NCBI GenBank assembly: GCA_028714255.1 | Contig: JAQTMR010000009.1 | Span: 1-64,000, forward strand | Direction: 5' to 3' | Source: Phycisphaerae bacterium | GTDB lineage: Bacteria > Planctomycetota > Phycisphaerae > Sedimentisphaerales > Anaerobacaceae | DNA: 64,000 bases | In this document: positions 1,028 through 37,500 of the stretch, piece after piece | Layout: the number at the start of each line of letters is the position of its first letter | How positions within the stretch are numbered: the stretch's first letter is position 1 | Notes under the pieces: generated by a model | The model's input: the letters and a program-made list of their open reading frames with translations, nothing else | What the model was told of the DNA's origin: nothing | The model's database searches: none | Made by a program: the position numbers and the translations under genes

Positions 1028-1738
1028 TTATAGTGCACGGCGTCTTCGCAGCCAGCCGACAAGACTTACACCAATACCGCCCAACAGAATAGCTCCTGGT
1101 GCGGGAATAGGTGCTGTATTTGAGGCAACTCTCACAAGACAATCTTGTTTATAGTCACCAACACTTGGAGAGTCCGATGTCCCCTGTGTGTACAATTGGA
1201 GTACCTTGATTGTGGTATTGTTCCAGTCGCTATTATCGTTGGCCATATCAACCAAAATCTTGACGTCTGCGAAATCTGGTAGGCTCAAGCTGCTTTCCGG
1301 AATTTCTTCCTCAAGACACCAGATAGCCATCTGGTAATTCTTAGCCAGCGTATTGTTGATGCTGCTGGGGTTGAAAACATTGTCCAGATAGTAATTGTAC
1401 AGCCATGCAGTCGCGTTACCCAGAGGGTCGGTGGGGGGAGTGCCTGTGGCTCCTCCAAGTCCTCCGTACATAGCCTTAGTGTCAAGTATGGCATCGTAAG
1501 TTACACCAATGTTGACATGCTCATCTGCTTCGATGCAGAATGAAACAAACTGTCCATCAGCAACTCCGGCGATGTCTTTTGCCGTAAATATAAGTTCGCC
1601 TGCATAGACTGGGGAACCAAAACCATAATATATGCCCTTATCGCCTAAGCCGTTAAGCTTAACAGTAGGCCCGGCAAAAGCTGATGTTGCACAGAGGGCA
1701 CATGCAAGCAGGATTAGTATTAACTTCAACTTATTCAC
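1028..1738 (-). CDS. PEP-CTERM-type surface protein with a possible thioester domain
   Basis: The 236-residue protein has a signal peptide (residues 1-22, ending ATSAFA-G) and a C-terminal sorting signal, [18 protein letters not shown] then LRRRRAL (about 212-236). It should be exported, cut by an exosortase and retained at the surface. The central domain has a FCIE motif (Cys68) and a later YQMAIW motif (Gln136). This Cys...Gln-x-Ala-Ile-Trp pattern is the signature of thioester-forming adhesin domains, where Cys and Gln side chains crosslink. Assignment to that fold is inference from these motifs. The gene sits 36 bases after the next PEP-CTERM gene upstream (1775-2455) and is followed by a hairpin terminator at 987-1009. 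Confidence 0.85.
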
Positions 1739-1774: not shown

Positions 1775-2455
1775 TTACAGTGTTCTTTTTCTTCTCAGCC
1801 AGCCGACAAGGCTTACACCGATACCGCCCAATAAAATAGCGCCTGGCGCGGGAACGACAACACTCATCTGCCCGCTTAGAGTCCCAACCGCAGAGTCAGT
1901 AAGGCCCTTCTTAATCATGGTGTAGAGGTCCTTACCGCCTGTTGCTTGACCGCTAAAACTGATGTCCCATGGATAGAGTGCATCATACATAGCAAAATCG
2001 TCTATGACTGTCGAATAGGAAGGAGTATAACTAATCATACTCAAATCGTCCTGTATTACTGAATAGGCCAAGTAATCCTTCCCTATTACCAACACACCTC
2101 CAGTTCCGAGCGAAGCGGTCATCACAGTACCGGATACGCCGGTATCATCGGTGATGGTCACTAACGGGGGAGCTATTGGAGTGAGACTCGCAACAAGCTG
2201 AAAACCAGTGTCAGTAATTGGCCCCAGCATCATGGATGGCAGGCCCACAAGGTCTTTGAACACTGCATCAGGTGTTGGAACGGAATCATCAATCTCGATG
2301 TTGCCCAGCGAGAAACTCATTGTCCAACTGGTGCCTGAGCCCGCGATGGCCCATGAGGTTGTCCCTGCCTTAGTGGTGAAGTTCAGTGAAGGATAAGCCC
2401 ATGCAGGCGCGGCCATTAAAGCACACACCATTAATCCTAATAATACTTTTTTCAT
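1775..2455 (-). CDS. PEP-CTERM-type secreted protein; passenger shared with the beta-helix protein
   Basis: The 226-residue protein starts with a signal peptide (MKKVLLGLMVCALMAAPAWA) after a good AGGAG ribosome site 9 bases upstream. It ends with the sorting signal [19 protein letters not shown] plus LRRKRTL. The passenger between them (about 24-200) has no enzyme motif. It clearly aligns with residues about 658-840 of the large protein at 34564-38070: shared landmarks in order are SLNF, NIE(I/V)DDS, LPSM, TDD or TDN, AYS...DDL, SFSG and GTLSGQ. The domain is therefore a mobile, non-catalytic secreted module, probably beta-rich. Function is unknown. The gene is the middle of three consecutive sorting substrates. 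Confidence 0.87.
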   Translation of the reverse strand: MKKVLLGLMVCALMAAPAWAYPSLNFTTKAGTTSWAIAGSGTSWTMSFSLGNIEIDDSVPTPDAVFKDLVGLPSMMLGPITDTGFQLVASLTPIAPPLVTITDDTGVSGTVMTASLGTGGVLVIGKDYLAYSVIQDDLSMISYTPSYSTVIDDFAMYDALYPWDISFSGQATGGKDLYTMIKKGLTDSAVGTLSGQMSVVVPAPGAILLGGIGVSLVGWLRRKRTL

Positions 2456-3794: not shown

Positions 3795-4178
3795 TTATTC
3801 AGAAGGGTCCTTGTAAGGCTGCAACTTTCTCGATTCCACGATAGGAATGGGAACTGTTGCATTGTATCGGGCGAAAAGTTCGTTCGAATCGGACACAAAT
3901 CTTAAGAGCATCGCCATTTTGCTCTTGACCTGAATCTTTCGATAGATATTTCTGATGTGAGTTTTTGCGGTTCCCCCCGTTATCCCCAGCTCTTTAGCTA
4001 TGTCATTGTTTCTGGCGCCCTGGCAAACAAGTTCCGCTATCTGGCGCTCACGAGGAGTCAAGCTGTAACGGTTCTGCAGATATGACCACTGTTTTCCGTT
4101 TAACAGCACAACATTATACTGTTTACTGCGGAAATTGTCTTTGCCGTCTTCGTTCACTGGCTTTTGCAGTTGAGACAT
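3795..4178 (-). CDS. LuxR/NarL-type solo HTH regulator
   Basis: The 127-residue protein has a GerE-type helix-turn-helix at residues about 38-95. It shows the typical LTPRERQIAELVCQG start and the TAKTHIRNIYRKI recognition helix. There is no receiver or ligand domain before it, only about 37 uncharacterised residues, plus a 30-residue tail. It should bind DNA in the cytoplasm; the signal it senses is unknown. Its ATG lies 2 bases after the stop of the large TPR gene (TAA-CT-ATG), so the two are translationally coupled. It closes the EPS gene run just before the exported substrate genes, which it may control. Confidence 0.85.
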   Translation of the reverse strand: MSQLQKPVNEDGKDNFRSKQYNVVLLNGKQWSYLQNRYSLTPRERQIAELVCQGARNNDIAKELGITGGTAKTHIRNIYRKIQVKSKMAMLLRFVSDSNELFARYNATVPIPIVESRKLQPYKDPSE

Positions 4179-4180
4179 AG

Positions 4181-7100
4181 TTAATTTTCTTTTGACAATG
4201 CTTTGAGCAGATTCTGCGCCTCGTTCAGGTCCGCCGGCGATAATCCTCCAACCTGGCTCTCTAAATCCAAAGTTTGGTTCAAATAGCTAATTGCTTTGTC
4301 TCTTTCGCCGAGTCCGGCGAAAGCCCTTGCTAAATGAAAATAGGAACTGACGCGCCCCGGCGACTGAGCCGGGTAAAGCTCTATACACGAAGTGAAATCC
4401 TGTATGGCTTCGTTAAATTTGCCAAGTCGGTAACACGCCATGCCGTGGGTGTCAATAAGGTCCGCATACTGAGGCGCTATTTGCAGTCCCCTCTCGGCAA
4501 GGTCGAACGCCTGTTGATATTTGCCTTGCTCTTCACACATCAACCATGCAAGATTATTAATGGCGATTATATTGTCAGGCTGAAGTGCAACAATTCGCTG
4601 ATTAAGTTCGACTGCTTCTGCATTGCGTCCGGTCATTTGCAGCAAAATAGCAAGACTAAACATCGCTCTGGGATGTTCCGGCATTTTGGCTATGACCATA
4701 CGAAGAATATCCTCGGCGGTTTTCATCACCGCAGAATCTCCGCCTTTAGTCAATTCCTCGGCAATACTAATAAGGATTTGACTGTGCTGGGGGTGTTGTT
4801 CAAACCAATCGTTAGCTTTGGCCATAATATCAGCATATCGGCCATCTTCATTAAACAAGCTGCACTGTGCTAATAATACTCTGGGGTCGTTAGGGTCGGA
4901 TTCAAATAGTGAACCAAACAGTTTTTCTGCTTCATCTTTATTGCCGTTTTTGTATAACGCAGAAGCTAAGGCGATGTTACATCTTCGGCGAGTAGGGTCA
5001 TCTTTGCAAACACTCAACTGTTCTCTTAGCAGTTTCACTGCTTTTTCCTGCTCACCTGCCGCGACGTATGTGCCGGCTAAGTTCATAGCAATCTCAACAT
5101 TATTTGGATCCTTTTCCCACAAAGCCTTGAGAGTAGGAATCGCCAACGCCGGCGACCTGGCCGCCTCGATATTGGCTTTGAGCAGCAGCAGCGCCGTGTC
5201 GTTAGGTCTGTGGATAAGACCACGCAAAACGGAATCCATAGCTTTTGCGATTTGTCCGTCCCTCAGCGCCAGTTCCCCAAGAAGCCCCCATGCCTCGCCA
5301 TTTTCGGGCTGGTCGTCGGTTATCTTCTGAAGAATTGCGGCGGCTTTTTCTGTCGCCGGGGCTGTCCCCTCAACGACAAGTAACCGCGCTTTGTATAGCT
5401 GCAGTTCGATATCATCAGGATTTGACTCTAAGGCTTTATCAAGAATGGCTCTTCCATGTTCGAGAATGTCCGGGTTATCAGACGCTAAAAAGAGCAAAAC
5501 AGCGCGCTTCTGAATACCAAGGTTGTCCGGAGCAATGGATATCGCCTGTTTTATATCAGCAGACGCTTTATCCAATTGGCCCGTAAAACGATAGAAATCA
5601 CTCTTGGCTACCCAAGCCTCAACGTTTTCAGGTTCGATGGTAACGGCATATTCGAGGTCTTCCTTCGCTCTATCGGTCTGCCCAATGGTAGTGTACGTCC
5701 TGGCGCGAAGGACATAAGCTGATGCGTTGTTGAGGTTGCTCACCGTCTCATTACAAAGTCTTACCGCCTCTTCAGGTTCTCCCTGACGAATGCTCAATTG
5801 GATTTGCGCAACTATCACCGGCAGTGCATTGGGGTCATGGGCCTTGAGTTCACCCAGTAACTTACCTGCCTCATCAAATTTATTTTGCTGTATCTTGAGT
5901 ATTGCAAGAGACAAGGCAACAGCTCTGTCATTGGGGTCCTTGCTCAGCAAATCGTCCATAACATCGGAGGCAGGGTCCAACTGCCCATGTCTGAGATAAC
6001 TCTGCAATTGGAGCCTCTGAAGTTGGGGATGGTCGAGCTTATCGGCGGCAGCACGGCTCAAAATCTCGTCGGCCTTGTCGTATTCTTTTGCCCTGTAAAG
6101 TGCTGAAACCATAGGGATGATTATGCGGAGGTCCCGAGGTGACCGGTCCAACGCCCTGCTGTAGGTTGAAAGTGCTACCTGGAGGTTCCCTATCCGTTCG
6201 TAGGTTGCAGCAAGCAACATACGGCTTTCCTGGTCATCCGGATTGGCACGCAGACTTTCTTCGAGAAGTGAAATTATTTGGCTCTGGTGGTCTTTGAAAT
6301 CATCGCTGCCAAACCAAATTTTTGTTTGTTCATACCGCCACTGCCGGCCGTCTTCTCCTTCGAGGGACTTTATGTCATTGATGAGTTGTTGGGTTTTTTC
6401 GGGGCTTTTAAGAACATCCCGACAAGCTAAAAGGCGACGCTTCACGGGAATATCATTCGGAAGTTTCTTGGCAAGATTGCCAAGCAATTTATAAACACTC
6501 TCTTCCTGTCCCCATTGAGCATAAAACTGAACAAGCAGTAAACCTAATTCGCGTTCGTCAGCGGGCTTATCGATGCGAGCCAGCGCTTCCTTGATAACTG
6601 TTTCACATTTCTCGCGGTCACCCTGCCAGGCCAACAAAATTGCAAGGTATCTCACGGGTTCAACAGCCTCAGGATTTTCCTTTATTGCGTTGTTTAACAC
6701 TAATACCGCTTCATCTGTTTTATTTTGAGAAGTGAGTAATTCGACTTCAGCCATAGCAATTCTTACTTGCGATGGGTGCGTTTTCTTCAATTGGGCTATC
6801 AACACCCCGGCATCGGCAAATTTACGCTGTTCCATTGCGACCTGAAACTGCAGAAGCTTTACCCCAAGAGAACCGTTGGTGCCTTTTTCCAGAACGGACA
6901 ACTGCTTTTCTATATCCTGCCACGATTCGGCATTTTTGTCCGTTGTTCTTGCCGCCAGCAGTTGTATCCGGGCCTGTAAATGTAGTAAAGCGGCCTCAGG
7001 ATTTTCCGGTGAAAGCTGCATTGCTCTATAAGCAATATCTGCTGTTTGAACCCAGTCACCTGTTTGAGCCAACAATCTGGCAAGGGCCAAATGTCCTTCT

Positions 7101-8359
7101 AAAAAATCAGGTCTTTCAGATACTAAAGTGCTCAATTCCCGCATCGCCAATTGTGTATCACCCAAACGAGACAGAACTGATGCCATCGCCAATCGAATTC
7201 TTGGAGTTTTATCACCTAACTCCATCGCCCGGCGCCAACATTTGACTGCCTCATAACCATTATTCTGCCCTTTCGAATTGGCGACAAGACCCTCCAAAAA
7301 AGCCACGGTAGCAGGAGCAATATCCTTTTGGCTTAGTTCGGAAATACAATCGGTAGCACGGCCGAGCTCGTCGCACCGAATAAACAACTCTGCGGCAATA
7401 GGCATAAAATCCCATGGTTGAGAAGAAAGTTCTTCCAATCCGGCTTCGGCGACTTTCAACATCTTTTCTTTTGATTCCGATTTCAATGCCAGCTGCGCCC
7501 ATGTTTGCCACAGAATAAAGTTTGTTGGTTCAAGAGTTTGCACTACCGAAAGGTGCTCCTCAGCTTTGTCAAAAATACTTGCCTCGATAAATCCCCTCGC
7601 AAGGCGCAACCTCACCACGATATCAGATAAATCCTGTTTTTCGGCTTGCTCCAGGTCGGCCAGGGCACTTGCATTGTCTCTATTGCTAAAATGAAAATTG
7701 GCACGGATTATATAAGCCATCGCCGAGGACGGATTATTTTCTACCGCCCTGTCAAGCCAACTTTCAGGCAGTTCCGAAGAAACTTCCGGTCGTTGCCTGA
7801 GCAGTTGCCACAATGCCTCGTAGGCTAATATCTGATCGGGATAACTTTCTATGATAGCCTCTAATTCCGCTGCAGCCTCGTCGAACTTCCGCTGTTCGGC
7901 AAGCGACAGGGCCAGCAGCTTTCGAAGTTCAGGGGCTTGATTTATTTCGAGTACCCTCCGTGCGATTAACTCGGCCTCGCCGGGCATACCCATACCAAGA
8001 TATACTTCTGTAAGTCGTATAGCTGCATCGATATTGCCCTTTTCCACCCTCAAAACAATTCGATAAGCCGAAACGGCCTGCTGGATATTACCGTGTCCTA
8101 AAGGCCTGATATTAAGCTGAGCATCGGCATATTTAAGCAGGGCTGAAACATCATCAGACTCAACGGCAATATAACGTCCCAGGTTTGTCGCCGCTTCTTC
8201 CCACCTTTGTTCCTCATATGCCTTGTTGCCAATCTCTAGCGCGTTCTCGGCCCGACTGCTCCTCTGCCATCGGCGCAATCCGTAAGCTGTTACAGCTAAA
8301 ACACTTAAACCGATAACCAAAACAATCGCCAATTTCCAGTTAAAATATCTTCTTGGCAT
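4181..8359 (-). CDS. giant membrane-anchored TPR protein
   Basis: The 1392-residue protein has a short basic start and one N-terminal membrane helix (about 9-28, LAIVLVIGLSVLAVTAYGL). Almost everything after it is tandem tetratricopeptide repeats with A..L...G and NP(D/E)D spacing. It lacks a lipobox Cys, so it is anchored by the helix and not by lipid. TPR proteins of comparable size accompany exosortase/EPS systems (for example the PEP-CTERM-system TPR lipoprotein family) and scaffold export or assembly. Periplasmic location is inferred. It is 34 bases after the sugar-phosphate transferase and directly coupled to the LuxR-type gene. Confidence 0.85.
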   Translation of the reverse strand: MPRRYFNWKLAIVLVIGLSVLAVTAYGLRRWQRSSRAENALEIGNKAYEEQRWEEAATNLGRYIAVESDDVSALLKYADAQLNIRPLGHGNIQQAVSAYRIVLRVEKGNIDAAIRLTEVYLGMGMPGEAELIARRVLEINQAPELRKLLALSLAEQRKFDEAAAELEAIIESYPDQILAYEALWQLLRQRPEVSSELPESWLDRAVENNPSSAMAYIIRANFHFSNRDNASALADLEQAEKQDLSDIVVRLRLARGFIEASIFDKAEEHLSVVQTLEPTNFILWQTWAQLALKSESKEKMLKVAEAGLEELSSQPWDFMPIAAELFIRCDELGRATDCISELSQKDIAPATVAFLEGLVANSKGQNNGYEAVKCWRRAMELGDKTPRIRLAMASVLSRLGDTQLAMRELSTLVSERPDFLEGHLALARLLAQTGDWVQTADIAYRAMQLSPENPEAALLHLQARIQLLAARTTDKNAESWQDIEKQLSVLEKGTNGSLGVKLLQFQVAMEQRKFADAGVLIAQLKKTHPSQVRIAMAEVELLTSQNKTDEAVLVLNNAIKENPEAVEPVRYLAILLAWQGDREKCETVIKEALARIDKPADERELGLLLVQFYAQWGQEESVYKLLGNLAKKLPNDIPVKRRLLACRDVLKSPEKTQQLINDIKSLEGEDGRQWRYEQTKIWFGSDDFKDHQSQIISLLEESLRANPDDQESRMLLAATYERIGNLQVALSTYSRALDRSPRDLRIIIPMVSALYRAKEYDKADEILSRAAADKLDHPQLQRLQLQSYLRHGQLDPASDVMDDLLSKDPNDRAVALSLAILKIQQNKFDEAGKLLGELKAHDPNALPVIVAQIQLSIRQGEPEEAVRLCNETVSNLNNASAYVLRARTYTTIGQTDRAKEDLEYAVTIEPENVEAWVAKSDFYRFTGQLDKASADIKQAISIAPDNLGIQKRAVLLFLASDNPDILEHGRAILDKALESNPDDIELQLYKARLLVVEGTAPATEKAAAILQKITDDQPENGEAWGLLGELALRDGQIAKAMDSVLRGLIHRPNDTALLLLKANIEAARSPALAIPTLKALWEKDPNNVEIAMNLAGTYVAAGEQEKAVKLLREQLSVCKDDPTRRRCNIALASALYKNGNKDEAEKLFGSLFESDPNDPRVLLAQCSLFNEDGRYADIMAKANDWFEQHPQHSQILISIAEELTKGGDSAVMKTAEDILRMVIAKMPEHPRAMFSLAILLQMTGRNAEAVELNQRIVALQPDNIIAINNLAWLMCEEQGKYQQAFDLAERGLQIAPQYADLIDTHGMACYRLGKFNEAIQDFTSCIELYPAQSPGRVSSYFHLARAFAGLGERDKAISYLNQTLDLESQVGGLSPADLNEAQNLLKALSKEN

Positions 8360-8393: not shown

Positions 8394-10103
8394 TTAGAAT
8401 TGCCCGACGAATTTTCTAAGCATTTTTTTGACTGTTTTCCAGCATATCCATATATCCATCTTCAATGAAAGCTCCCGGACATATTTTGTGTCGTAATAAA
8501 TCCATTCCTGAAAATCTTTCATTGGCTGGCGAGTCCTGCAAATCTGCCACAGGCCCGTGACACCTGGCCGAACCGATAGTCGGGCATCCCGCCAGGATGG
8601 GCATAATGTATTCTCCGATTCAGGCGATGGTCTTGGTCCGACAAGACTCATCTGACCAAGCAAAACATTGAAGAATTGAGGTATCTCGTCGATATATGTG
8701 TCCCGCAGAAATCTGCCGACAACATCGACCCGAGGGTCATCTTCCATTTTGAATTGCGGGCCGTCAGTTTGATTCACAACTCTTAGTTTATCCTGAATTT
8801 TGTCCGCACCAACAGTCATAGTTCTGAATTTCAGACAGTAAAATTCCTTGCCGTGCAGCCCCTGACGTTTATCCTTAAAAAATACCGGACCCGATGAATT
8901 TAATTTTATTGCCAGCGCAATAAATGGTACTACAGGGGCAAATAAAATCAGTACAATTGTCGCGGCAAAATAATCAGCTATCCGTTTGAAGCATCCTGCA
9001 TAAGAAAATCTCGGCCAAATTCGAAAAACGTCAGTGACATTGGCTCGACAATTTAAATCTGCGAACGAAACTTGCTTTGAGCCGTTGCTTTTGTATTGAG
9101 CCAGGCGTTTCCAGTCACATTGTGCTTCCTTTACAAGTTTGCTCTGGAGCAGTTGATTTTGCGGCACTGAAATATTCGAACAAATTATTGACGAATTTAT
9201 CACCGCCCCCTGACCGATTCTGACGTTATTGCCAATGATAGTCGGCCCTACGATGATAACATTCGGACCGATATGAACATCTTTTCCTAACAGCACTTTT
9301 CCCATTAATCTTGCGCTGCCGGATATCGTGCCGGTAACATCAGATACGCTGTCGTAAATTCTATAACCATTCGCAGGAAAATGACTGTCGGTTAAAAAGT
9401 TGAGCTTGGTTTTACAAAAACTCAACAATCCCTCTTCCGCCCCCAGGTCCAGGGCAGTCCCGGCTACATTAATTGCGTGCAACTCCAATGAATTTGACAG
9501 GCACTCTCTGACAAAACATGAAAAAGATTTATGCAAAATGTCGTGAGCCATAAGAAACTCGACAACCTCGGCTCTAACAAAGATATGATGGGGCCAACTA
9601 TCAGGGACAGACACCGGTTCAACGAAATCAAGGTAGCACCTACGGTAACCTGCCACCCTGTCTCGGGATGCCAATATAATTTTTTCACGATATGCCAGCA
9701 ATTCAGCTTTTGCATTAACTGCTATCACATCCGCCGGCATTTCAGCCAAGACCTTATGGAACAACTCGCTGCTAATTCGAGTAGCGAATTGTCCGTTGGA
9801 AACGACAAACCATGAATCTCGTTTAGCTTTTCGCAAGGCTTCCCAGTTAAAGGGCACATCGTCTTCGTAGCGCACTATTTCGGGAGTTGCTCTTTGAGGT
9901 TCAATGTTCCATTCTTTGGGAACGGCAACTGCTGTGTTCGTATCACTGCTCAACCATAGATTCTTGCTTAATCCATCTAAAACAAGACTGGCGACAGGTT
10001 CTCTGGAAACAGCAAACTGAAGCAGGTTGTCACCCATTTGGGTTGTGGAGTCTCCCTTTTTACGAACAATAACCAACTGACTATATCGATTGGAGTTCAG
10101 CAT
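8394..10103 (-). CDS. initiating sugar-phosphate transferase with N-terminal LbH module
   Basis: The 569-residue protein has two parts. Residues about 373-566 are a bacterial sugar transferase (WcaJ/PglC/PssY-type): a membrane hairpin at 378-400, KFRTM (425-429), DEIPQFFNVLLGQMSLVGPR (472-491) and VRPGVTGLWQ. This enzyme loads the first sugar phosphate onto undecaprenyl phosphate. Residues 1 to about 310 resemble a sugar nucleotidyltransferase with a left-handed beta-helix (hexapeptide repeats about 260-305: GKDVHIGPNVIIVGPTIIGN). No GG-GTR-PK nucleotide-binding signature is visible, so this half is probably non-catalytic. The same module is fused to the exosortase at 12681-14660. It lies between the Wzc-like gene and the TPR gene. 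Confidence 0.88.
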   Translation of the reverse strand: MLNSNRYSQLVIVRKKGDSTTQMGDNLLQFAVSREPVASLVLDGLSKNLWLSSDTNTAVAVPKEWNIEPQRATPEIVRYEDDVPFNWEALRKAKRDSWFVVSNGQFATRISSELFHKVLAEMPADVIAVNAKAELLAYREKIILASRDRVAGYRRCYLDFVEPVSVPDSWPHHIFVRAEVVEFLMAHDILHKSFSCFVRECLSNSLELHAINVAGTALDLGAEEGLLSFCKTKLNFLTDSHFPANGYRIYDSVSDVTGTISGSARLMGKVLLGKDVHIGPNVIIVGPTIIGNNVRIGQGAVINSSIICSNISVPQNQLLQSKLVKEAQCDWKRLAQYKSNGSKQVSFADLNCRANVTDVFRIWPRFSYAGCFKRIADYFAATIVLILFAPVVPFIALAIKLNSSGPVFFKDKRQGLHGKEFYCLKFRTMTVGADKIQDKLRVVNQTDGPQFKMEDDPRVDVVGRFLRDTYIDEIPQFFNVLLGQMSLVGPRPSPESENTLCPSWRDARLSVRPGVTGLWQICRTRQPMKDFQEWIYYDTKYVRELSLKMDIWICWKTVKKMLRKFVGQF

Positions 10104-10156
10104 CTAACTAACCTCTTGGTGATGGATTTTCCGCTTAGCGGTGAAAGCCTTCGGTA

Positions 10157-12466
10157 TTATTTGTCCGGCTCTTGCATAGACAGGAGAAATTGCTTTGTGT
10201 CAGTCCGCTTGACCTTTGCTTTGGCTTGATATTGGCCGTTTTGCGAGCGATAATTGTAAGCATAGCGATAGTAACCACGGCTAATCCGGACATTGCTCAG
10301 AACTGTTCCCAAAATTGTAACATTCAAGCGGGCCAGCCGGACTTTTACTTCCTTCAGATCAGGGGCAGTGGTTCGACCTGCGAAACTTGTCAATATAACC
10401 GCTCCTGCAATCCTGGCCCATATAAGTGCATCAGGGAATGTAAGCGCAGGAGGAGTATCGATGACTACATGGTCATATTCCTGGCTAATCTTATCTATGT
10501 ACCTGCCTTTATGAAGCGCAACTAACAGTTCATAGGCATGTGAATCCTGTGAAGAATCATCAAAATCACCTGCTAATACATCCAGCCCGATTGAAGGTAT
10601 GTGATAAATATACTTCTTTAATTCTCCTCCGAGAAACACACCCTGCAAACTACTTGTACCTTTAGGAATATTCAATATACGTGCAATATCAGGTTTTCTC
10701 AGGTCACCGTCTATTAGCAAAACTTTTTTCCCTGACCTGGCGATACTCGTGGCTAAATTGATGGCAAAAGTGGTTTTGCCTTCCTGTGGGCCCGCACTTG
10801 TAACAATCAGCCTCCTGGGCATCCCTTCGCTTTCATCGTTAAGCAAACCCAGGTTGGCGTAGATAATCTGGTAATCTTCAGCCAACCGTCCCTGAAGAAG
10901 TGTCTTATCAAAATACCCCAAACCGGGTGTGGTGCCGAGCATCCGACCTCCGATTCTTCTAACCACATCTTCGGGGGTTCGCAGACGCTTGTCCGCCTTG
11001 GCTGCCATAAATGACAACAGCATCCCAAACGCTAATGCACCGAATATAAGAGCTATTGTAAGTTTGACGCGCTTATCTTTTACAAGAGCAACGTCTGCAT
11101 TATAAGCGACGGAAATCCTTGCGGGCCGTTTCCGCTGCATTTCTAATTCTTTGATACGTCGGCTTACTGTATCGTATGTCTCTTTGGTTAAAGCCAATTC
11201 ATCCTCCAAATCCTGGATAGCCACCTGAGTACGGCCTACTCCGATGGTTTCGGTATCCTCCTTGGCCAACAGTTCCCGAAAACGCTCTTCATAAGCCCGG
11301 ATTTGTTCCAGCTCAGCCTGTGCTTTAGCCAGTCTTTCCTTGCCGGCTTTGGCCATTTTTTCAGCCATTAATTCATCAAAGGTTTGCCCGGATTCTTCCT
11401 TAAGCTGCGCAACACGTTCTTTCAATGTCTCTACTAATTCAATCTTGTTTTTAAGTTCCGGATTCGAAGGGGTTAACACCTGGCGAATTGCGACAAGCTC
11501 CTGCTCCAGTTGTGTGATGTTTCCCGCAAATGCCCTTATCACATGGTCCGAATTAATATATTCGTTGCGCATTTGCAGTAATTCTTCCGGCCCGATAGTC
11601 TGTTCTTCGTCTGTCTTCTCAAGTAATTGCACCATGGCCTCAAGATTAATCCTGCGAACCTCATATTGGGTAACTTGAGCTAACAGGCTGGAGACACGTT
11701 CCAGCTTCATATCACGCCGACTTTCTAAATCTTTGTCTCCGAACTCTTGGGCCAGTTGGCTGATTGTTTTCCGCTGATTCTGCATTTTTTGGGACAGAAC
11801 CTGACGTTCGTTTTCCAGGAGGCTCAGTTTCTGGTTCTCGACATCAGCGGAGTTGGAAACTTCGATTGCCATATAGGCACGAATAAAAGCATCTACGATT
11901 TGCTTGGCTTCTTCTACATTTTTGCTTTCCATCGTTATCGTTATTAGCTCGGAACGGCGTTCCGCAGTAGCTCTGATGGTTCTTTCGCTTATCGCCTTCT
12001 TCAATATACGTACCGGTTCAGGCCTTGTCTTGCTGCCGCTTAACGTCTGTTTCAATCCCTCGGCGACATTAACCGAACCATTTTCAAAAAACGCCATGTT
12101 TTTATCTACTAAATCATCTGCGACTCGCTGGACCGCTGGGCCGCTGGTTATCCTTACAGCCTCAGTATTTACAAAGTTTTGATAGTTTAATATTTCTCCC
12201 TCATCTGCTTCACCTGAAAGGATATCCGTCAGAATAGGAGCAACTCTTATCGCACCGGTCACTTCGTACACAGGAACTTTCAAAAACCATATCGCGGGAA
12301 TCCCGACCAGGCATAACACCAAAAAGGTCGGCAGCACAATATACCAGCGACGAAATATCTCGATAACGAAACCTGCCATTGAAAGACCACTTGCCCCGGC
12401 TGGCGTCTCAAAACCAGCAGCTTCTTCTTCGACCAAATGGTTACTATATGTGTTCAAATCGTTCAT
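10157..12466 (-). CDS. Wzc-like polysaccharide co-polymerase / tyrosine kinase
   Basis: I chose the ATG at 12466 because AGGAG lies 7 bases before it. The 769-residue protein has a cytoplasmic start, a first membrane helix (about 43-62), a Wzz-type periplasmic domain with a long coiled coil (about 205-450), a second helix (about 468-487) and a C-terminal BY-kinase domain. The kinase shows Walker A SAGPQEGKTT (557-566), Walker A' LLIDGD (584-589) and Walker B VVIDTPP (667-673). A tail tyrosine cluster (Tyr732, 733, 735, 737, 739, 746) is the expected autophosphorylation site. It should control chain length and export of the EPS. A candidate promoter at 12577-12605 precedes it. Confidence 0.9.
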   Translation of the reverse strand: MNDLNTYSNHLVEEEAAGFETPAGASGLSMAGFVIEIFRRWYIVLPTFLVLCLVGIPAIWFLKVPVYEVTGAIRVAPILTDILSGEADEGEILNYQNFVNTEAVRITSGPAVQRVADDLVDKNMAFFENGSVNVAEGLKQTLSGSKTRPEPVRILKKAISERTIRATAERRSELITITMESKNVEEAKQIVDAFIRAYMAIEVSNSADVENQKLSLLENERQVLSQKMQNQRKTISQLAQEFGDKDLESRRDMKLERVSSLLAQVTQYEVRRINLEAMVQLLEKTDEEQTIGPEELLQMRNEYINSDHVIRAFAGNITQLEQELVAIRQVLTPSNPELKNKIELVETLKERVAQLKEESGQTFDELMAEKMAKAGKERLAKAQAELEQIRAYEERFRELLAKEDTETIGVGRTQVAIQDLEDELALTKETYDTVSRRIKELEMQRKRPARISVAYNADVALVKDKRVKLTIALIFGALAFGMLLSFMAAKADKRLRTPEDVVRRIGGRMLGTTPGLGYFDKTLLQGRLAEDYQIIYANLGLLNDESEGMPRRLIVTSAGPQEGKTTFAINLATSIARSGKKVLLIDGDLRKPDIARILNIPKGTSSLQGVFLGGELKKYIYHIPSIGLDVLAGDFDDSSQDSHAYELLVALHKGRYIDKISQEYDHVVIDTPPALTFPDALIWARIAGAVILTSFAGRTTAPDLKEVKVRLARLNVTILGTVLSNVRISRGYYRYAYNYRSQNGQYQAKAKVKRTDTKQFLLSMQEPDK

Positions 12467-12576
12467 TCTACAACTCCTTATCAGGTTTAATCCGGACACC
12501 TAAACAGAACGCTATAATTAAGCTGTCCAAAAAAATATGATTAATGCCGCTCCTCGCAAACTTTTTGACTCGTTAC

Positions 12577-12605
12577 AGTATAGCAAATACACAGAACTAA
12601 TTCAA
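12577..12605 (-). promoter_or_regulatory. candidate promoter before the Wzc-like gene
   Basis: On the minus strand TTGAAT (4 of 6) and TATACT (5 of 6) are separated by 17 bases, about 110 bases before the Wzc-like start. It lies in the 214-base gap after the exosortase gene. The Wzc-transferase-TPR-LuxR block could therefore be transcribed separately from the upstream glycosyltransferase genes. Confidence 0.4.
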
Positions 12606-12680
12606 GCTGTCAGGCATCCGCAAATATCGTTTTGAAGCTCCTCGGCTTTACTGCCTCGGCTTCTTGTAAAGGCGAATAAA

Positions 12681-14660
12681 CTATGAATTTTGCCTGGTAA
12701 CTATTATGGCTTCTTTTTCCGCTGGGGGGATAGTAAGTTTGGTCAAAAGCCAAAGCTCAACGACCACAATTGCAAGGGCCATCGGCATCATCGCGTAGCC
12801 GCCAAAGTCGTGGAATACTTTTTCCCACCGCTCGCCATGCAGCATTGTAAAAGCAATGGCCGTAGCTACTAATCGCAAGGTATTGCACAGTAAGGCAACC
12901 GGCAGACTGGAAGCAAGAATCACCAGCTTTTCCCACCACGTTCGATTGACTAACAAAACAACCAAACCGCTAATCACAAAAAAGGCTGTAATCATTCTTA
13001 AACCATTACAGGCCTCGGCCACGGCAACAGTCGCCTGACCAATATGGATTACATTGCCTTCCTGGATAATCTCATAACCTACCGTCTCCAGGCAAAATAC
13101 CGCTGACGAAGTGGCCCATCGCTGTAAAGGCAGCGCCGCAGCAGCTTGAATCCGCGTAGGCCAGGGAAGCATTAAGCACAGGAAAAGTAATATCGTAGAT
13201 ACTTTCCGCAAAAACTGCCAACCAAACAAAAGCAGCACCAATGCCGCAATACTCAGAACAATTGATAATCTTTCCGCAGAGCCATACATAAAGAACAGCC
13301 CGAAAAATCTCACGCCTTGAGCCGCAATGAAAGCAAACAAGCCCCATACAGACGGCTTTATATTTGCCTCAGCGATTTTATGACGCCTCGACCACAAGAT
13401 ATAAATAGCCAACAGAGGAACTAAAAGGCCGGATGAGTATTCGTCGCTTCGCTGCCAAATGGTCCAAAGGTCCACAAGACAGGGCCAATAAGACCAAAGA
13501 AAAACAATCAGAACAAGACTGCCGGCAAGCCAGGGAACGATGCTTTTATTGCGAAGATGCGGCAACTGCGGCAATTTTTCGTTTAATTTGTCGAACTGCA
13601 GCAACACTGAAGATTGCAATTTCTCCGCCTTGCTTTTCATAGATGCCAGAATCCTGCTGATGGAACTATCCGCTACTTTCTCTGATTTTCGTGCAATAAA
13701 CTTTCCCTGTACAACACTATCGCTCTGCACCTGCCCATGGTAATCCACCAGACACCGTTGTATCTCACAATTTGCGCCAACTTTGGCATCGTCCCAAAGA
13801 ACGCTATTTATCACAACACTATCTTTGTCGATATTAACATTGCGTCCGAGTATGGTCGGCCCGAGAATAACAACGCCATTTGAAACGCTAACGCCGTCCA
13901 TAATAACAACCGGCCCATAAATTCGCGCATCAGCGTCAATTTTTGTCTCGGCTCCCGCCCATATAATTCGCGAATCATCCTTTTTCAATATCTGCAATTC
14001 TTCTTTTATCTGGTGTCCATTTTCAAGATAGTCGCCAATGGCACACAGGTATTCCTGCCTGTCCCTGAAATTTCCTGCGCGATGTGGTAATACAGCCGCT
14101 CGAATAGTTTTTCCTGCGAGGAGCATCTCTGGAATCAAGCCTTCTTTGATATCAAAGTAACCTTCTTTCGGAATGTTCTCCAAAATGCTGGCGTCGCAAA
14201 TGTATATCTCTGCTGCTTCTCCCATCGGATTACTATTTTTACCGGCCGGATTAAACATCATGGTCAAATCAGACTTACCGTTGAGATGTGCGCCTATCAG
14301 AACATCGATATCCGGAGGAGATATCATGCTGGCGTTGAATACCATAAATAAGGTATTTGTTTCACCGTTGGCCGCGTCGCGGATGCACCCGGCCGAACCA
14401 AGAGGCAATGGCTCATCCACAAATTTCAGCCTGGGACAATCCTCTGCGATAATCGAACGAGCCAGCAAAGGACCGTCACCATTGGAATAAATGACCGCCT
14501 CGGCTATCCCCTGATTAGCTAAACGAGTCAGCAGACGTGCCAGCACGGATTTCCCTGCTACCGGCCACAATGCCGCAGGCAAACGCATCACCGCCGAACT
14601 ATGCCGAACGTCACGGCCACCTGCAAGTATAATAGCTTTGATAATTTGTTTGCTACGCAT
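12681..14660 (-). CDS. exosortase fused to a nucleotidyltransferase-like/LbH module
   Basis: The 659-residue protein has a C-terminal exosortase (about 372-642) with eight or so membrane helices and the catalytic triad visible: Cys551 in EACNGLRM, Arg596 in CNTLRL and His617 in FHDFGG. It should cut and transfer PEP-CTERM proteins such as those at 1-2455. Residues 1-235 resemble a sugar nucleotidyltransferase (IKAIILAGG at 7-15; LPLGSAG at 85-91), and 236-320 form left-handed beta-helix repeats. The NTP-binding signature is degraded: after LAGG comes RDVRH where GxGTR is expected, and the PK lysine is Ala. Activity of that half is doubtful. Exosortases are normally about 250-300 residues without this domain. 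The frame is continuous with a 50-residue linker. An EpsI partner lies at 33242-34000. Confidence 0.9.
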   Translation of the reverse strand: MRSKQIIKAIILAGGRDVRHSSAVMRLPAALWPVAGKSVLARLLTRLANQGIAEAVIYSNGDGPLLARSIIAEDCPRLKFVDEPLPLGSAGCIRDAANGETNTLFMVFNASMISPPDIDVLIGAHLNGKSDLTMMFNPAGKNSNPMGEAAEIYICDASILENIPKEGYFDIKEGLIPEMLLAGKTIRAAVLPHRAGNFRDRQEYLCAIGDYLENGHQIKEELQILKKDDSRIIWAGAETKIDADARIYGPVVIMDGVSVSNGVVILGPTILGRNVNIDKDSVVINSVLWDDAKVGANCEIQRCLVDYHGQVQSDSVVQGKFIARKSEKVADSSISRILASMKSKAEKLQSSVLLQFDKLNEKLPQLPHLRNKSIVPWLAGSLVLIVFLWSYWPCLVDLWTIWQRSDEYSSGLLVPLLAIYILWSRRHKIAEANIKPSVWGLFAFIAAQGVRFFGLFFMYGSAERLSIVLSIAALVLLLFGWQFLRKVSTILLFLCLMLPWPTRIQAAAALPLQRWATSSAVFCLETVGYEIIQEGNVIHIGQATVAVAEACNGLRMITAFFVISGLVVLLVNRTWWEKLVILASSLPVALLCNTLRLVATAIAFTMLHGERWEKVFHDFGGYAMMPMALAIVVVELWLLTKLTIPPAEKEAIIVTRQNS

Positions 14661-33241: not shown

Positions 33242-34000
33242 CTATTTTCTATCCGGCAAAGCAGCTTTTTCACCGCTCCCGGATTGCTGTTTCAGTTTCG
33301 CTGCCGACACTTGACCGTTAAGGTCGGGCAGATAGTCCAATACCAAACCTGTCAAATCCTTGGCAACCTGGCGGGTGGAGTCCTCCAGAACCGAGCTTAT
33401 TTGTACCTGGGCGACATATCTCGCTATGTCACCGCTCATATTAACCCTTCGACCGAAAGGGCCCGAAAAATCGTCCTCACTGGTGGTAATTTGGCCCTTC
33501 AGTATATAAAAGCTCAACACCACAATTTCATGGTAGTTAGGAGCCGGTTTGTGAAATCGATGTATCAGACAAGGTATTCGTTGACTGGCCCGTGAAGTAA
33601 AATACGACAGCTCCGTACTGTCATGTACCCACCCATGTGCAGGATAACACACCTGAGGCCGATGACCCAATATACCTCCTGGTCGGGACGAGCAATATAC
33701 CACGTAAACATCCGCCCATACCCCGGTAACGGCATTAATATATCGTCGGCTAAAAAAATCATCCGCAAAATTATCTCTCATATATTCCTGGGTAATAGCG
33801 GGTATAGGCAATTCTTCACCGAGCCAATCGCCGGCTTGCATCGGGAAAGCATTCAAAGGCACTGGCAAAGTAATGGGGGGTTCAACCACAAACTTCAAAT
33901 GGGAAGCCAGAACTCTGTAAGTTATCCCAGCAGACAGCAAGAGTAAAATGGCCAAGAGCCAAACTGCACTCACCGGTATTTTGCCTGTTGCTGTGCGCAT
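33242..34000 (-). CDS. epsI: EpsI-family exosortase-associated protein
   Basis: I chose the ATG at 34000 because AGGAG lies 9 bases before it. The 252-residue protein has one N-terminal membrane helix (ILLLLSAGITYRVLA) and a periplasmic EpsI domain (DUF3485). Key landmarks are FPMQAGDWLGEELPIP and the family motif GHRPQVCYPAHGW with its conserved Cys. EpsI proteins accompany exosortases, and in many species they are fused to them. Here it stands alone 19 kb upstream of the exosortase, which is fused to another domain instead. It is the first gene behind the strong promoter at 34176-34203. Confidence 0.9.
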   Translation of the reverse strand: MRTATGKIPVSAVWLLAILLLLSAGITYRVLASHLKFVVEPPITLPVPLNAFPMQAGDWLGEELPIPAITQEYMRDNFADDFFSRRYINAVTGVWADVYVVYCSSRPGGILGHRPQVCYPAHGWVHDSTELSYFTSRASQRIPCLIHRFHKPAPNYHEIVVLSFYILKGQITTSEDDFSGPFGRRVNMSGDIARYVAQVQISSVLEDSTRQVAKDLTGLVLDYLPDLNGQVSAAKLKQQSGSGEKAALPDRK

Positions 34001-34175
34001 CAAATAGGACTCCTTAAGTGATTTCTCCTGACGGTTTAACCTTACCACATCCACAAAACGGTATAATCCTAAAGTAGTAGTCTCAAGCCAAACATTTCGC
34101 CAGGCTCAGACCACAAACTTCATACCTTCTGGAGGTGGAAACTTCTCCTCCTTGGCAAGTAAATTGCAAGGAACA

Positions 34176-34563: not shown

Positions 34564-37500
34564 ATGGAACAATCCCTGAGGGAATTGTCTGTCAATAGCC
34601 TGCAAAAACAATCAAGATTTCCCTTGTTTTTTCGCGTGGCAATATTCTGCGCGATGCCCTTTGTTCTTGGCAATATTGCAACTGCTGCTACTTATTATCT
34701 TGATGCTGTCAATGGCAACGACAGTGCTCCCGGAACAAGTACTGAGCCCTGGAAAACTTTGAGTAAGGCTCAGTCCATCGTATCTGAAGGCGATACTGTT
34801 AAGCTGCGTAACGGAAATTATGGCACTTTTTCCGATGGGACTGGTAACCGCAGTAACTGGATAACCTGGGAAGCTGACGAGGGGCACAATAACGTTAACA
34901 TGGTTCACGTAAATCTTGGTCAGGGACCTGGCTACTATAATATGTATTTGCGGTTTGACGGCATCAATGTAGAAGGAGGTCCAAAACCGGGAGAAAATGA
35001 GAATAGAGCCGTAAGAGCTTATTATGTCAACTATGTTGAGTTTCTTAATATGACTGTTTTCGGAACTGCTCCCTACCGCAGAGATTACCAAAGTGCAGGA
35101 ATTTTCCTCTTCAACGCCAACCATATAAAAATCAAAAATTGCACCATACATGGTTTTAGGGAGCAAATTGTTGGACAACCAAATACTAACAATGACGACA
35201 TTCTTATTGAGGATTGCTCTCTTTACGATGGTTTCTGGCCTGTTTTAGCTTATGGCAGTAACTGGATAGTCAGAAATAATGAATTCCGTGATGTTTGGGA
35301 CGGAATAAATATGGACTGCCACGACAGTAGCATTGAGTATAACTATATCCATGATTTCAAGCCGCCGACCCCGGAATATCACGGTGATGGCATCCAGATT
35401 TATAACCATTCGATTTATGGACATCAGCCGAAGAACATTACAATTAGAGGCAATATCGTCAATACCGGCTCTCACCACAGTCTTGGTTTACGCTGCTCTG
35501 CTGATGGGCAGGGTCTTAATATAATCGTCGAGAATAACATAGCCTATAACGCCACCTCAACTAACGTCAGTCTTATGGGCCTGTCGGGCGTCATCTTCCG
35601 CAACAACACTATTCCTGATGGATTAGTGGACATAAACAACGTTAGTTCGCTTTCTATTTCCGGCAATCTACTCTATAGATGCGATATCTGGAATGCGGAC
35701 AATGTCGATTATGAGGATTATAATATTCTTTACCAATGGTGGGCCCACACAAAACCAGATGCCTTTCAGGGACCGAATACTACTGTGTATGGTACTGGCA
35801 AAGAATATTTGTTCAAGGCCAATTTTGTCGATTGGGACAACAAAGATTTTCATCTTGCACCAGGTTCGGATGCTATCGACTTCTGTCCTTTAGCAATCGC
35901 TCCGGACACCGACTTGCTGGGCAAAATACGTATCGATATACCGACCGTAGGAAATGATGGAAATACCTGCGCCGACGCCGGATGTTATGAATTTGACTCC
36001 TCTCTGCCTGCAAATCTCCCTCCGGTCTTTGACCCCATCGGCAACAAATCTGTTGCCGCGAATTCGACCCTCACTTTTACCGTAAACGCAACCGACCCGA
36101 ATGGAGACATACTTACCTACTGGGCCTCAGAACTGCCGGAAGGAGCAACTTTTGACTACCTAACCAAAACTTTTACCTGGACCCCGACACAAGCCCAAAT
36201 TGGTATTCACACCGCAACCTTTAAAGTTATGGACAAGTTTTATCGGGTATCTGAAACCATAACAATAACGGTTACCGCTGCGACAACAACCAACATCATC
36301 ACCGTTCCTGTCGATGTGAACTCAATTCAGGCAGCTATAGATTCGGCTGATAATGGTTACACAATTATTGTAGAGCAGGGTCGTTACTGTGAGAACATTC
36401 ATTTTAAAGACAAGAACATCTTCCTCAAAAGCACAGACCCCAACGACCCTAACATTGTTGCAAACACGATTATAGACGGCAAAAATGCAGGCAGCGTTGT
36501 TACGTTCAATTATTCAGCGCCTCCATTAACTAACGCGTCCTTGAATTTCAGTACAGGACCGGACATCACTAACTCATGGTTTGCAACAAAATCGGGTGAT
36601 GTTATCACTATGAATTTCAGTAACATCGAAGTCGATGACTCTACCCTTGCAGACAACCTGCTATACGATACGGTAAGGCTGCCCTCAATGGTAGTAACAA
36701 ACATCATCGCAAAAACACTGCCCGGCATCGGGGATGTTTATGAAGCCACCTTGAATCCAATTCCGGGTTCTATGCTGACACTAACGGACAACACCAGTGG
36801 AACTGTGGTGATGAGCGCTGCCGTCAATACCGGCAGCATGATAGCCATCGGTACTAACTGGACCGCTTATTCAGAATCCAATGATGACCTGACCGGTATC
36901 AGCACCACCACCCCGGGATACTCTGCCGTTGTTGACAGTTTGGTCAGCACTTATGAAAACAAACCGGTTGTCGATTTATCATTCAGCGGCAACAGTAGTG
37001 CTCCATTGTATGCTCTGCTTGGTTCCACAAGTGATGGAGCAATCAGTGGTACTCTTAGCGGCCAAATCAATGTCGTTTATACTCCGAAAGATAAAAATAC
37101 CAGCTGTAAAATCGCTGGTTTTACAATCACCTCCGGCAGAGCTTCACAGGGCGGAGGGGTTTATATTGATTCTGCCTGCCCTCTCGTGGAGAAAAACGTA
37201 ATAATAGCCAACAATGCCTTAAAGGGGGGCGGGATTTATTGTAAAGACGACTCGGCTATAATCAGACTCAACAAGATTATTAAAAACTATGCTCTTCTTG
37301 GAACCGGAGGAGCTATTTACTGCACAAACAGCTCTGCGGTCCTCGAAAATAATCTTATCACTAACAACACCGCACGTTACGGGTCCAGTATCTTGTGGTT
37401 CGGAGGCAAACCAACCATTTTGAATAATACAATCGCCTGTAATCTTTCGACTTCCAATTCGTTCTCGTGTGGTATTGCGGCTGATTCGAGCGAATCGCCG

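Follow-up and report, generated by a model that had tools for sequence, protein, structure and literature searches.

Architecture of the locus

The locus raises the question of why two membrane enzymes encoded 2.6 kb apart, an exosortase and a sugar-phosphate transferase, carry similar modules at their N-termini. Exosortases reside in the EPS loci of many bacteria and have a presumed role in fixing proteins to the cell surface. We analyzed a window of 64,000 nucleotides, which is the whole stretch of DNA considered here. Both open reading frames were found where an earlier note on this DNA had placed them. The exosortase protein (12681-14660, minus strand) is referred to as X and the sugar-phosphate transferase (8394-10103, minus strand) as G, and their N-terminal modules as the X module and the G module. 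X is composed of a pseudo-nucleotidyltransferase (pseudo-NT) domain, a left-handed beta-helix (LbH) domain, and an exosortase domain; G is composed of a more eroded NT domain, an LbH domain, and a monotopic phosphoglycosyl transferase (PGT) domain. One gene occupies the gap between them. The features are as follows.

13977..14660, minus: X residues 1-228, pseudo-NT domain (PF00483, AlphaFold2 model, eIF2B-epsilon match, residue losses)
13686..13964, minus: X residues 233-325, short LbH (PF25084/PF00132; regularly spaced strands in the AlphaFold2 model)
13545..13685, minus: X residues 326-372, charged linker ahead of the first membrane segment (hydropathy; no transmembrane segment before residue 373)
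12726..13544, minus: X residues 373-645, exosortase domain with Cys551, Arg596, and His617 (PF09721, TIGR02602, motif positions)
10157..12499, minus: Wzc-like chain-length determinant/tyrosine autokinase between X and G (TIGR01007, 98 bits, just missing the cut-off of 108; TIGR03018, 76 bits, below cut-off); position unchanged in the loci of relatives
9354..10103, minus: G residues 1-250, strongly eroded NT-like domain (no Pfam match; AlphaFold2 model; profile match to X)
9123..9338, minus: G residues 256-327, LbH (PF00132, E 6.8e-9; hhalign to X LbH)
8397..9008, minus: G residues 366-569, PGT domain with Asp472-Glu473 (PF02397, E 6.2e-60; PGT tree)
4181..8359, minus: TPR protein downstream of G, PrsT (TIGR02917, above cut-off; position conserved in relatives)
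3795..4178, minus: LuxR-type regulator, last gene of the conserved order (PF00196; gene order in relatives)
1028..1738, minus: candidate sorted protein, its PEP-CTERM-like tail recognized by inspection (PF07589, 14.1 bits, below the cut-off of 20.7)
1775..2455, minus: candidate sorted protein, its PEP-CTERM-like tail nearly identical to that of 1028..1738 (PF07589, 14.6 bits, below cut-off)
33242..34054, minus: EpsI-like exosortase-associated protein encoded at the EPS cluster's far end (TIGR02914, below cut-off with E 4.5e-6)

In X, Pfam recognizes NTP_transferase at residues 8-137 (25.5 bits, cut-off 21.2), LbH at 233-323, and Exosortase_EpsH at 385-639 (E 2.7e-55). The exosortase domain exceeds the TIGR02602 cut-off (138.9 bits). 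No named exosortase subfamily (XrtA, B, C, D, V, W, and others) scores above its cut-off, the best being XrtD (157.8 versus 400) and XrtA (140.8 versus 208). Like known exosortases (XrtA, XrtD, XrtW, etc.), X has the PF09721 profile and the Cys/Arg/His motifs, and lies in an EPS locus alongside genes for PrsT and for EpsI-like and PEP-CTERM-like proteins, the putative PEP-CTERM substrates being the two neighboring proteins, whose tails match each other but score below the Pfam cut-off. Unlike them, it has a soluble NT-LbH module at its N-terminus. A literature search for exosortases with a nucleotidyltransferase or sugar transferase returned nothing relevant, and an N-terminal NT-LbH fusion was not found described there.

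G matches LbH/Hexapep at about residues 267-325 and Bac_transf at 373-562, and the Pfam search gave no match to its first 250 residues. The N-terminus of large PGTs (WbaP type) was not found in G, which has no transmembrane segment before residue 371 and no PF13727 match. G resembles large PGTs (WbaP, WcaJ, EpsZ) in its C-terminal PGT domain, its position at the head of Wzx/Wzy EPS loci, and an N-terminal accessory domain thought to be regulatory. It differs in having NT-LbH in place of the four-helix bundle and PF13727 domain, and in that the G PGTs form their own clade. Both proteins had been described as catalytically degraded. This holds for the two N-terminal modules, whose NT residues are gone, but not for the C-terminal enzymes, in which Cys551/Arg596/His617 of the exosortase and the Asp472-Glu473 dyad of the PGT are intact.

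Fold and relationship of the two modules

The AlphaFold2 models are of high confidence, with pLDDT values of 90.5 for the X module and 87.2 for the G module; the loop of X residues 18-23 falls below 50. Along the module length, both models match GDP-mannose pyrophosphorylases (GMPPs) and eIF2B-epsilon. Specifically, the best structural match of the X model is eIF2B-epsilon (Z 31, rmsd 2.9 Å, 323 residues), GMPPB chains score Z 28-29 with it, and the G model matches the GMPP VTC1 with Z 16 and an rmsd of 6 Å over 284 residues. The NT fold is assigned in X by PF00483 above cut-off and by Z 29 to GMPP, and in G by the fold match alone. The presence of NT-LbH-type modules on both proteins is confirmed. 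Closest in fold to X, eIF2B-epsilon (with gamma) is likewise an NT-LbH protein in a regulatory complex and not a sugar enzyme; it differs from X in that sequence kinship is not close beyond the NT-LbH family, and it has other partners and serves another process.

Direct comparison of X and G aligns the LbH domains alone (phmmer E 1.8e-10; blastp 35% over 65 residues). The NT halves give no signal in direct sequence comparison, and their relation is visible only by profiles and models. Comparison of family profiles aligns X 33-309 with G 36-328 (probability 99.7, E 4e-26). The LbH domains of X and G have an hhalign score of 138, as against 80 for G with ordinary NT-LbH proteins and 41 for G with GlmU, which bears out the claim that the beta-helix segments are closest. 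The NT half of X scores 213 with ordinary NT-LbH proteins and 191 with HddC-type NTs, but only 32 with G; that of G scores 41-45 with ordinary or single-chain NTs, single-chain denoting NT-LbH fused directly to PGT. Hence, the two modules resemble each other more than they do ordinary NTs in their LbH parts but not in their NT halves. The earlier note had spoken of the same module on both proteins; the shared NT-LbH fold stands, but "same" is too strong, as erosion has gone much further in the NT half of G than in that of X. A role of the LbH as an acyltransferase was rejected because its nearly invariant columns contain no conserved His.

Catalytic residues of the NT domains

Site roles follow PMC9168903; D111 and D219 are the metal-binding aspartates of VTC1. 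In X, the P-loop and the equivalents of K23, D111, and D219 are lost, the base-contact acid E83 and G88 are retained, and the catalytic Glu-Lys pair has become Lys172-Glu173, a swap found nearly throughout X. The D111 equivalent is Asp in all 45 ordinary proteins, is lost in nearly all X (Ser, Gly, Thr, or Ala), and is Arg or Gln in G ("SNGRF/SNGQF"); the D219 equivalent is Asn or Arg in X. The Lys following the GxGTR loop, again present in 45 of 45 ordinary proteins, is Thr, Ala, or Arg in X. The loop itself is replaced by rDFgR or HxWG in X and is absent from G. From sequence and model, X is predicted to be a GMPPA-like dead regulatory NT-LbH protein, with fold and base-binding residues kept and catalysis lost. 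As the base site is kept and the metal and phosphate residues are gone, X most likely binds a nucleotide or nucleotide-sugar without turnover; its acidic base contact would suit guanine nucleotides. GMPPA/GMPPB likewise has the NT-LbH fold, one dead regulatory member, and an NT-LbH partner; unlike there, the partner of X is a membrane PGT with a still more eroded NT and not an active pyrophosphorylase, X is in some cases joined to an exosortase, and its catalytic Glu-Lys is reversed.

Distribution and joint inheritance

The co-occurrence expected by the earlier note is clear. Among 61 genomes of the order Sedimentisphaerales, 32 have both modules, 27 neither, two G only, and none X only; in both G-only genomes the locus lies at a contig edge. 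Elsewhere in Planctomycetota, and in Acidobacteriota and Gemmatimonadota, the X module is a free protein adjoining G, so that adjacent pairs occur in three phyla. Wzy or Wza/Wzc genes are near some of these unfused loci, and an exosortase is near three of them (L170, L179, L279). Three genomes with the X-G pair had no detected exosortase. A similar NT-LbH is fused directly to PGT in some Acidobacteriota and two planctomycetes. The pair is older than the exosortase fusion. Since it occurs without the fusion, and in three genomes without a detected exosortase, it probably did not arise to serve sorting.

Operon order is tightly conserved in relatives. Locus L091 reads exosortase, kinase, and TPR, with about 300 bp at the expected G site, and its exosortase lacks the X module; five more exosortases of the same subfamily without X module likewise have no neighboring G. 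In L094 and L096, the exosortase is gone and the X module and G are kept. Apparent X-without-G loci leave the contig within 3 kb in 13 of 14 cases; the only real exception is L128, with X and no G within 9 kb. L178 encodes an NT-exosortase lacking the LbH, and its PGT is still present. The motif GYxDIKE was the scan key for L107-L183, so its constancy there is partly due to selection; two other locus sets were not so chosen. As a phylum-wide marker, it was dropped in favor of profile searches, because outside known relatives nearly all matches of the DNA pattern lay in unrelated proteins, mostly one family of ~950 residues that reads like translation factor IF-2.

The NT-LbH tree separates ordinary proteins from the single-chain proteins and X with a support of 100. 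Placement of the single-chain form first has moderate support (82), and the G module takes no resolved position in this tree (AU p 0.35). In the PGT tree, all G PGTs fall in one clade (99), subdivided like their X partners. The X-module tree distances follow the G module and not the exosortase fused to X. In partial Mantel tests controlled with two other operon genes only, over 21 loci, r is 0.50 (p 0.0005) for X-G and 0.07 (p 0.29) for X-exosortase, which is one polypeptide. Joint loss and correlated divergence favor the view of X and G as a matched pair.

Proposed mechanism and alternatives

We hold with moderate confidence that a dead nucleotide(-sugar)-binding NT-LbH protein is paired with the PGT module, regulates or organizes EPS initiation, and by fusion recruited the exosortase. 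The ancestor would be a sugar nucleotidyltransferase with NT and short LbH that lost catalysis and was taken into the service of an EPS-initiating PGT. Of the former active site, X retains the half that contacts the nucleobase, the metal, pyrophosphate, and phosphate residues being lost or rewritten; the more eroded G module would be its docking partner. Pairing would most likely occur on the cytosolic membrane face, as between dead GMPPA and GMPPB, and tune or gate the first committed EPS step by nucleotide-sugar supply. The fusion, found in Sedimentisphaerales and some relatives, may hold the sorting enzyme beside the polymer-starting enzyme. Across three phyla the two dead copies have been passed on, and lost, as a unit, which suggests that they act as a sensor or docking pair tying the jobs of the two enzymes to each other.

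Related systems offer precedents. GMPPB is regulated by GMPPA, which binds GDP-mannose (PMC11228364); in WbaP, the accessory domain stabilizes the dimer, and UMP has been proposed as its ligand (PMC10942596); EpsW activates the PGT EpsZ by contact (PMC12802240); and LbH domains of the GMPP family form dimers or GMPPA-GMPPB contacts (PMC9168903). We infer that X binds a ligand, that X and G touch directly, that PGT activity is controlled, and that exosortase and PGT are co-localized; from fusion and inheritance we further infer a coupling of EPS initiation to protein sorting. The beta-helix heterotrimer of the earlier note found no support, as LbH domains of this class dimerize (PMC9168903) and X of L178 has no LbH. 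Several points weigh against our explanation: genes of one operon are co-inherited anyway, the NT half of G resembles ordinary NTs at least as much as it does X, and L128 has X with no G nearby.

The modules might not touch at all, each forming a homo-oligomer that regulates or stabilizes its own fused enzyme, with the shared operon explaining their co-travel. The G module sits where large PGTs have the transmembrane bundle and DUF that mediate WbaP dimerization (PMC10942596), GMPPs provide examples of LbH homodimers (PMC9168903), and the gene order is tight. We nevertheless consider this rather unlikely: X without exosortase adjoins G in three phyla, X and G vanish together while their neighbors stay (L091), and X tracks G more than its own exosortase.

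It is improbable that the pair builds or positions an anchor, the PGT starting a polyprenol-linked sugar or EPS that serves as exosortase acceptor for PEP-CTERM proteins and X-G docking channeling the product. The fusion to an exosortase with intact motifs, the EPS locus with PEP-CTERM-like and EpsI-like proteins, and the exosortases near unfused pairs fit such a role; the pairs without fused exosortase, three of them in genomes without a detected one, do not, and the PGT product lies on the inner leaflet whereas sorting takes place at the outer side. Distinctly improbable is a stable exosortase-PGT complex held through X and G, with a nucleotide-sugar-sensing pseudoenzyme as clamp and PEP-CTERM proteins joined to the polyprenol-linked glycan of that PGT. 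That X is still an active NT channeling nucleotide-sugar to the PGT is hardly credible despite its retained fold and base-contact residues, given the loss of both metal-binding Asp, P-loop Thr/Arg, and Lys in nearly all members, the reversed Glu-Lys pair, and the low-confidence loop 18-23; X as an active pyrophosphorylase was rejected on its residue changes.

Under our preferred explanation, a module pair co-inherited with an EPS-initiating PGT and fused to an exosortase gives a concrete physical hypothesis for the presence of exosortases in EPS loci and for the target to which they join proteins, and the small soluble domains make it testable. X would be a bacterial, membrane-associated dead NT-LbH regulator parallel to GMPPA and eIF2B, and the pair would be a second control of polyprenol-phosphate spending beside the DUF of large PGTs. 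If the exosortase and PGT did form such a complex and proteins were joined to that glycan, surface-protein anchoring and polymer initiation would be one controlled process.

Domain layout and fold of the two modules

By domain annotation, the minus strand of the window carries a long EPS locus, in which a Wzc-like kinase gene sits between the two genes of interest, referred to here as X and G.

12681-14660, minus strand, exosortase gene X: nucleotidyltransferase (NT) domain, short left-handed beta-helix (LbH), linker, exosortase domain
8394-10103, minus strand, sugar-transferase gene G: 250-residue region without a Pfam match, short LbH, phosphoglycosyl transferase (PGT) domain

The first transmembrane segment lies no earlier than residue 373 in X and residue 371 in G. 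Hence, both N-terminal modules are soluble, and we infer from family topology that both face the cytosol. The exosortase X scores under the cut-offs of all named Xrt subfamilies. The host genome has two more exosortase-family genes without the module (G000:C1:249305-250153 and G000:C19:30643-31077, open frames of 354 and 225 aa). Elsewhere in the window, 34564-38070 encodes a 1168-aa parallel beta-helix-like protein with two dockerin-like repeats at its C-terminal end (DLNNDGIVNLADMALI / DLDSDGVVNFRDFAIF); by eye, its internal stretch SLNFSTGPDITNSWF...NIEVDDS is similar to the PEP-CTERM-like protein at 1775-2455.

In a direct comparison of X with G, the LbH alone aligns (E 1.8e-10). Profile alignment of 71 X modules with 64 G modules pairs X 33 to 309 with G 36 to 328 (probability 99.7, E 4e-26). 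AlphaFold2 models built from the X and G family alignments have confidences of 90.5 and 87.2, respectively. The X model matches NT-LbH proteins over the full length, eIF2B-epsilon best (Z 31, 2.9 Å over 323) and GMPP with Z 29, and so does the G model, which matches GMPP and eIF2B-epsilon (Z 16, 6 Å over 284). The best reading of the 250-residue region of G is therefore an eroded NT. The large rmsd of the G model may reflect a different NT-LbH orientation.

X-like NT-LbH modules are also fused directly to a PGT in single-chain proteins, found in some Acidobacteriota (L288, L289, L317) and at two other loci (L277, L278; L-numbers denote related loci from other genomes).

L277:6583-8679, single-chain NT-LbH-PGT protein
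L278:7589-9472, single-chain NT-LbH-PGT protein
L288:7779-9515, single-chain NT-LbH-PGT protein
L289:8340-10076, single-chain NT-LbH-PGT protein
L317:144-1880, single-chain NT-LbH-PGT protein

We compared profile scores of the two halves, with HddC and GlmU as controls. The LbH scores are X-G 138, X-single-chain 138, X-ordinary 124, G-single-chain 107, G-ordinary 80, and G-GlmU 41, ordinary meaning the usual NT-LbH proteins. The NT-half scores are X-single-chain 250, X-ordinary 213, G-single-chain 45, G-ordinary 41, and X-G 32. The beta-helix segments are thus the closest part of the two modules, as the earlier note had said. It had asked whether the modules are closer to each other than to ordinary nucleotidyltransferases; this holds for the LbH, whose nearest relatives are each other or the single-chain proteins, but not for the NT halves. 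These scores indicate that X is a recognisable GMPP-type NT relative and G a very divergent one, and that their special closeness resides in the LbH.

Catalytic residues

X was mapped on the GMPP VTC1 by motif alignment, with the roles of the site residues taken from PMC9168903. The phosphate-loop Thr/Arg, the Lys, and both metal Asp residues are gone from X, while the acidic base contact E83 (Glu or Asp in nearly all) and Gly88 are kept. In G, the base loop is lost as well. The catalytic pair Glu195-Lys196 of VTC1 stands in the opposite order in X, as Lys172-Glu173. This reversal is shared by all 59 fused X, by 22 of the 23 free X, i.e. modules without an exosortase (the remaining one has Lys-Gln), and by 5/5 single-chain relatives. 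As the motif with the reversed pair was the scan key for the 77-locus set, the constancy of the pair there is partly by selection; it also occurs, free of this bias, in 31 sequences from a whole-protein search and in the profile-found single-chain proteins. In the latter, the NT is partly degraded, the Lys often being kept, the metal Asp mostly lost, and a DIKE motif present. Both proteins had been proposed to be catalytically degraded. This is borne out for the N-terminal NT modules, which lost site residues, but not for the C-terminal enzymes, as the motif residues of the exosortase (Cys551, Arg596, His617) and the PGT (Asp472-Glu473) are present.

Distribution of the pair

Co-occurrence of the two modules was confirmed in the order: among 61 genomes, 32 have both, 27 neither, none only X, and two only G, both of these located at contig ends. 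The gene order X, kinase, G, TPR (PrsT-type), LuxR recurs throughout. In a phylum sample of 343 genomes, 12 have an X-type module at E <= 1e-40, two of these being single-chain proteins. Scanning named genomes yielded 77 loci. The most distant of these (L168-L183) come from other Phycisphaerae, Acidobacteria, and Gemmatimonadaceae; they encode X as a free protein of 370-480 aa, with G directly adjacent or one gene further on, and the overlap in L183 is 4 nt. More adjacent pairs occur in Acidobacteriota (L286, L287) and Gemmatimonadota (L290-L292). Wzy, Wza-type export, and Wzc genes lie near several unfused-pair loci, and no exosortase was found in three genomes having the pair, whose completeness is not given. 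The records of 'Pelotomaculum' (L148) and 'Candidatus Kuenenia' (L162) with a planctomycete-type locus are probably misbinned contigs.

The probable partner of X

A same-subfamily exosortase without X (L091:1-5120) has adjacent kinase and TPR genes and ca. 300 bp in place of G. Five further ones without X (L351-L355) have no neighbouring G. Conversely, L094, L096, and L139 lack the exosortase domain and retain X and G. Pairwise distances in the trees were also compared across 21 loci, the kinase and TPR genes serving as controls. The X module distances correlate with those of the G module (r 0.50, p 0.0005, jackknife 0.46-0.58), whereas they do not with those of its own exosortase domain (r 0.07, p 0.29). 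There are two exceptions: L128 has X and no G within 9 kb, and L178:791-2455 is an NT-exosortase fusion without any LbH, whose neighbouring PGT (G) retains its own NT-LbH module. Three lines, namely joint loss, correlated distances, and the free-pair and single-chain forms, point to G rather than the exosortase as the partner of X. Joint loss and correlated distances favour a matched pair, as first suggested.

Evolutionary history and proposed role

In the NT-LbH tree, ordinary proteins are split from single-chain proteins plus X (support 100), and X divides into two clades, one mainly of free and the other mainly of fused modules. In the PGT tree, one clade (support 99) holds all G and divides in the same way as X; the nearest others are the single-chain PGTs, with weak support. 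No position is favoured for the G module in the NT tree (AU p 0.35). The simplest history starts from NT-LbH-PGT, passes through a pair of X and eroded G, and ends with fusion of X to an exosortase. That the NT-LbH-PGT form is the earliest is moderately supported (82). In open-licence papers, no description of an NT-LbH exosortase or NT-LbH PGT was found, nor was one of the single-chain proteins. The component parts are of known kinds; their pairing and fusion appear undescribed.

A trimer of beta-helix domains, which the earlier note had thought possible for a pair that could couple EPS initiation to PEP-CTERM sorting, is not favoured. GMPPA, a paralogue without catalytic activity, binds GDP-mannose and acts as a regulator of GMPPB (PMC11228364), their contacts being mediated by the LbH (PMC9168903); X likewise lacks catalytic residues and has a predicted NT-LbH fold. 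The accessory domain of WbaP stabilises its dimer, with regulation through UMP proposed (PMC10942596), and contact with EpsW activates EpsZ (PMC12802240). By analogy with these systems, the best reading of X is a pseudoenzyme that would bind a nucleotide or nucleotide-sugar, dock on G, and control or organise EPS initiation. The fusion would then tether the exosortase to the site of EPS initiation.
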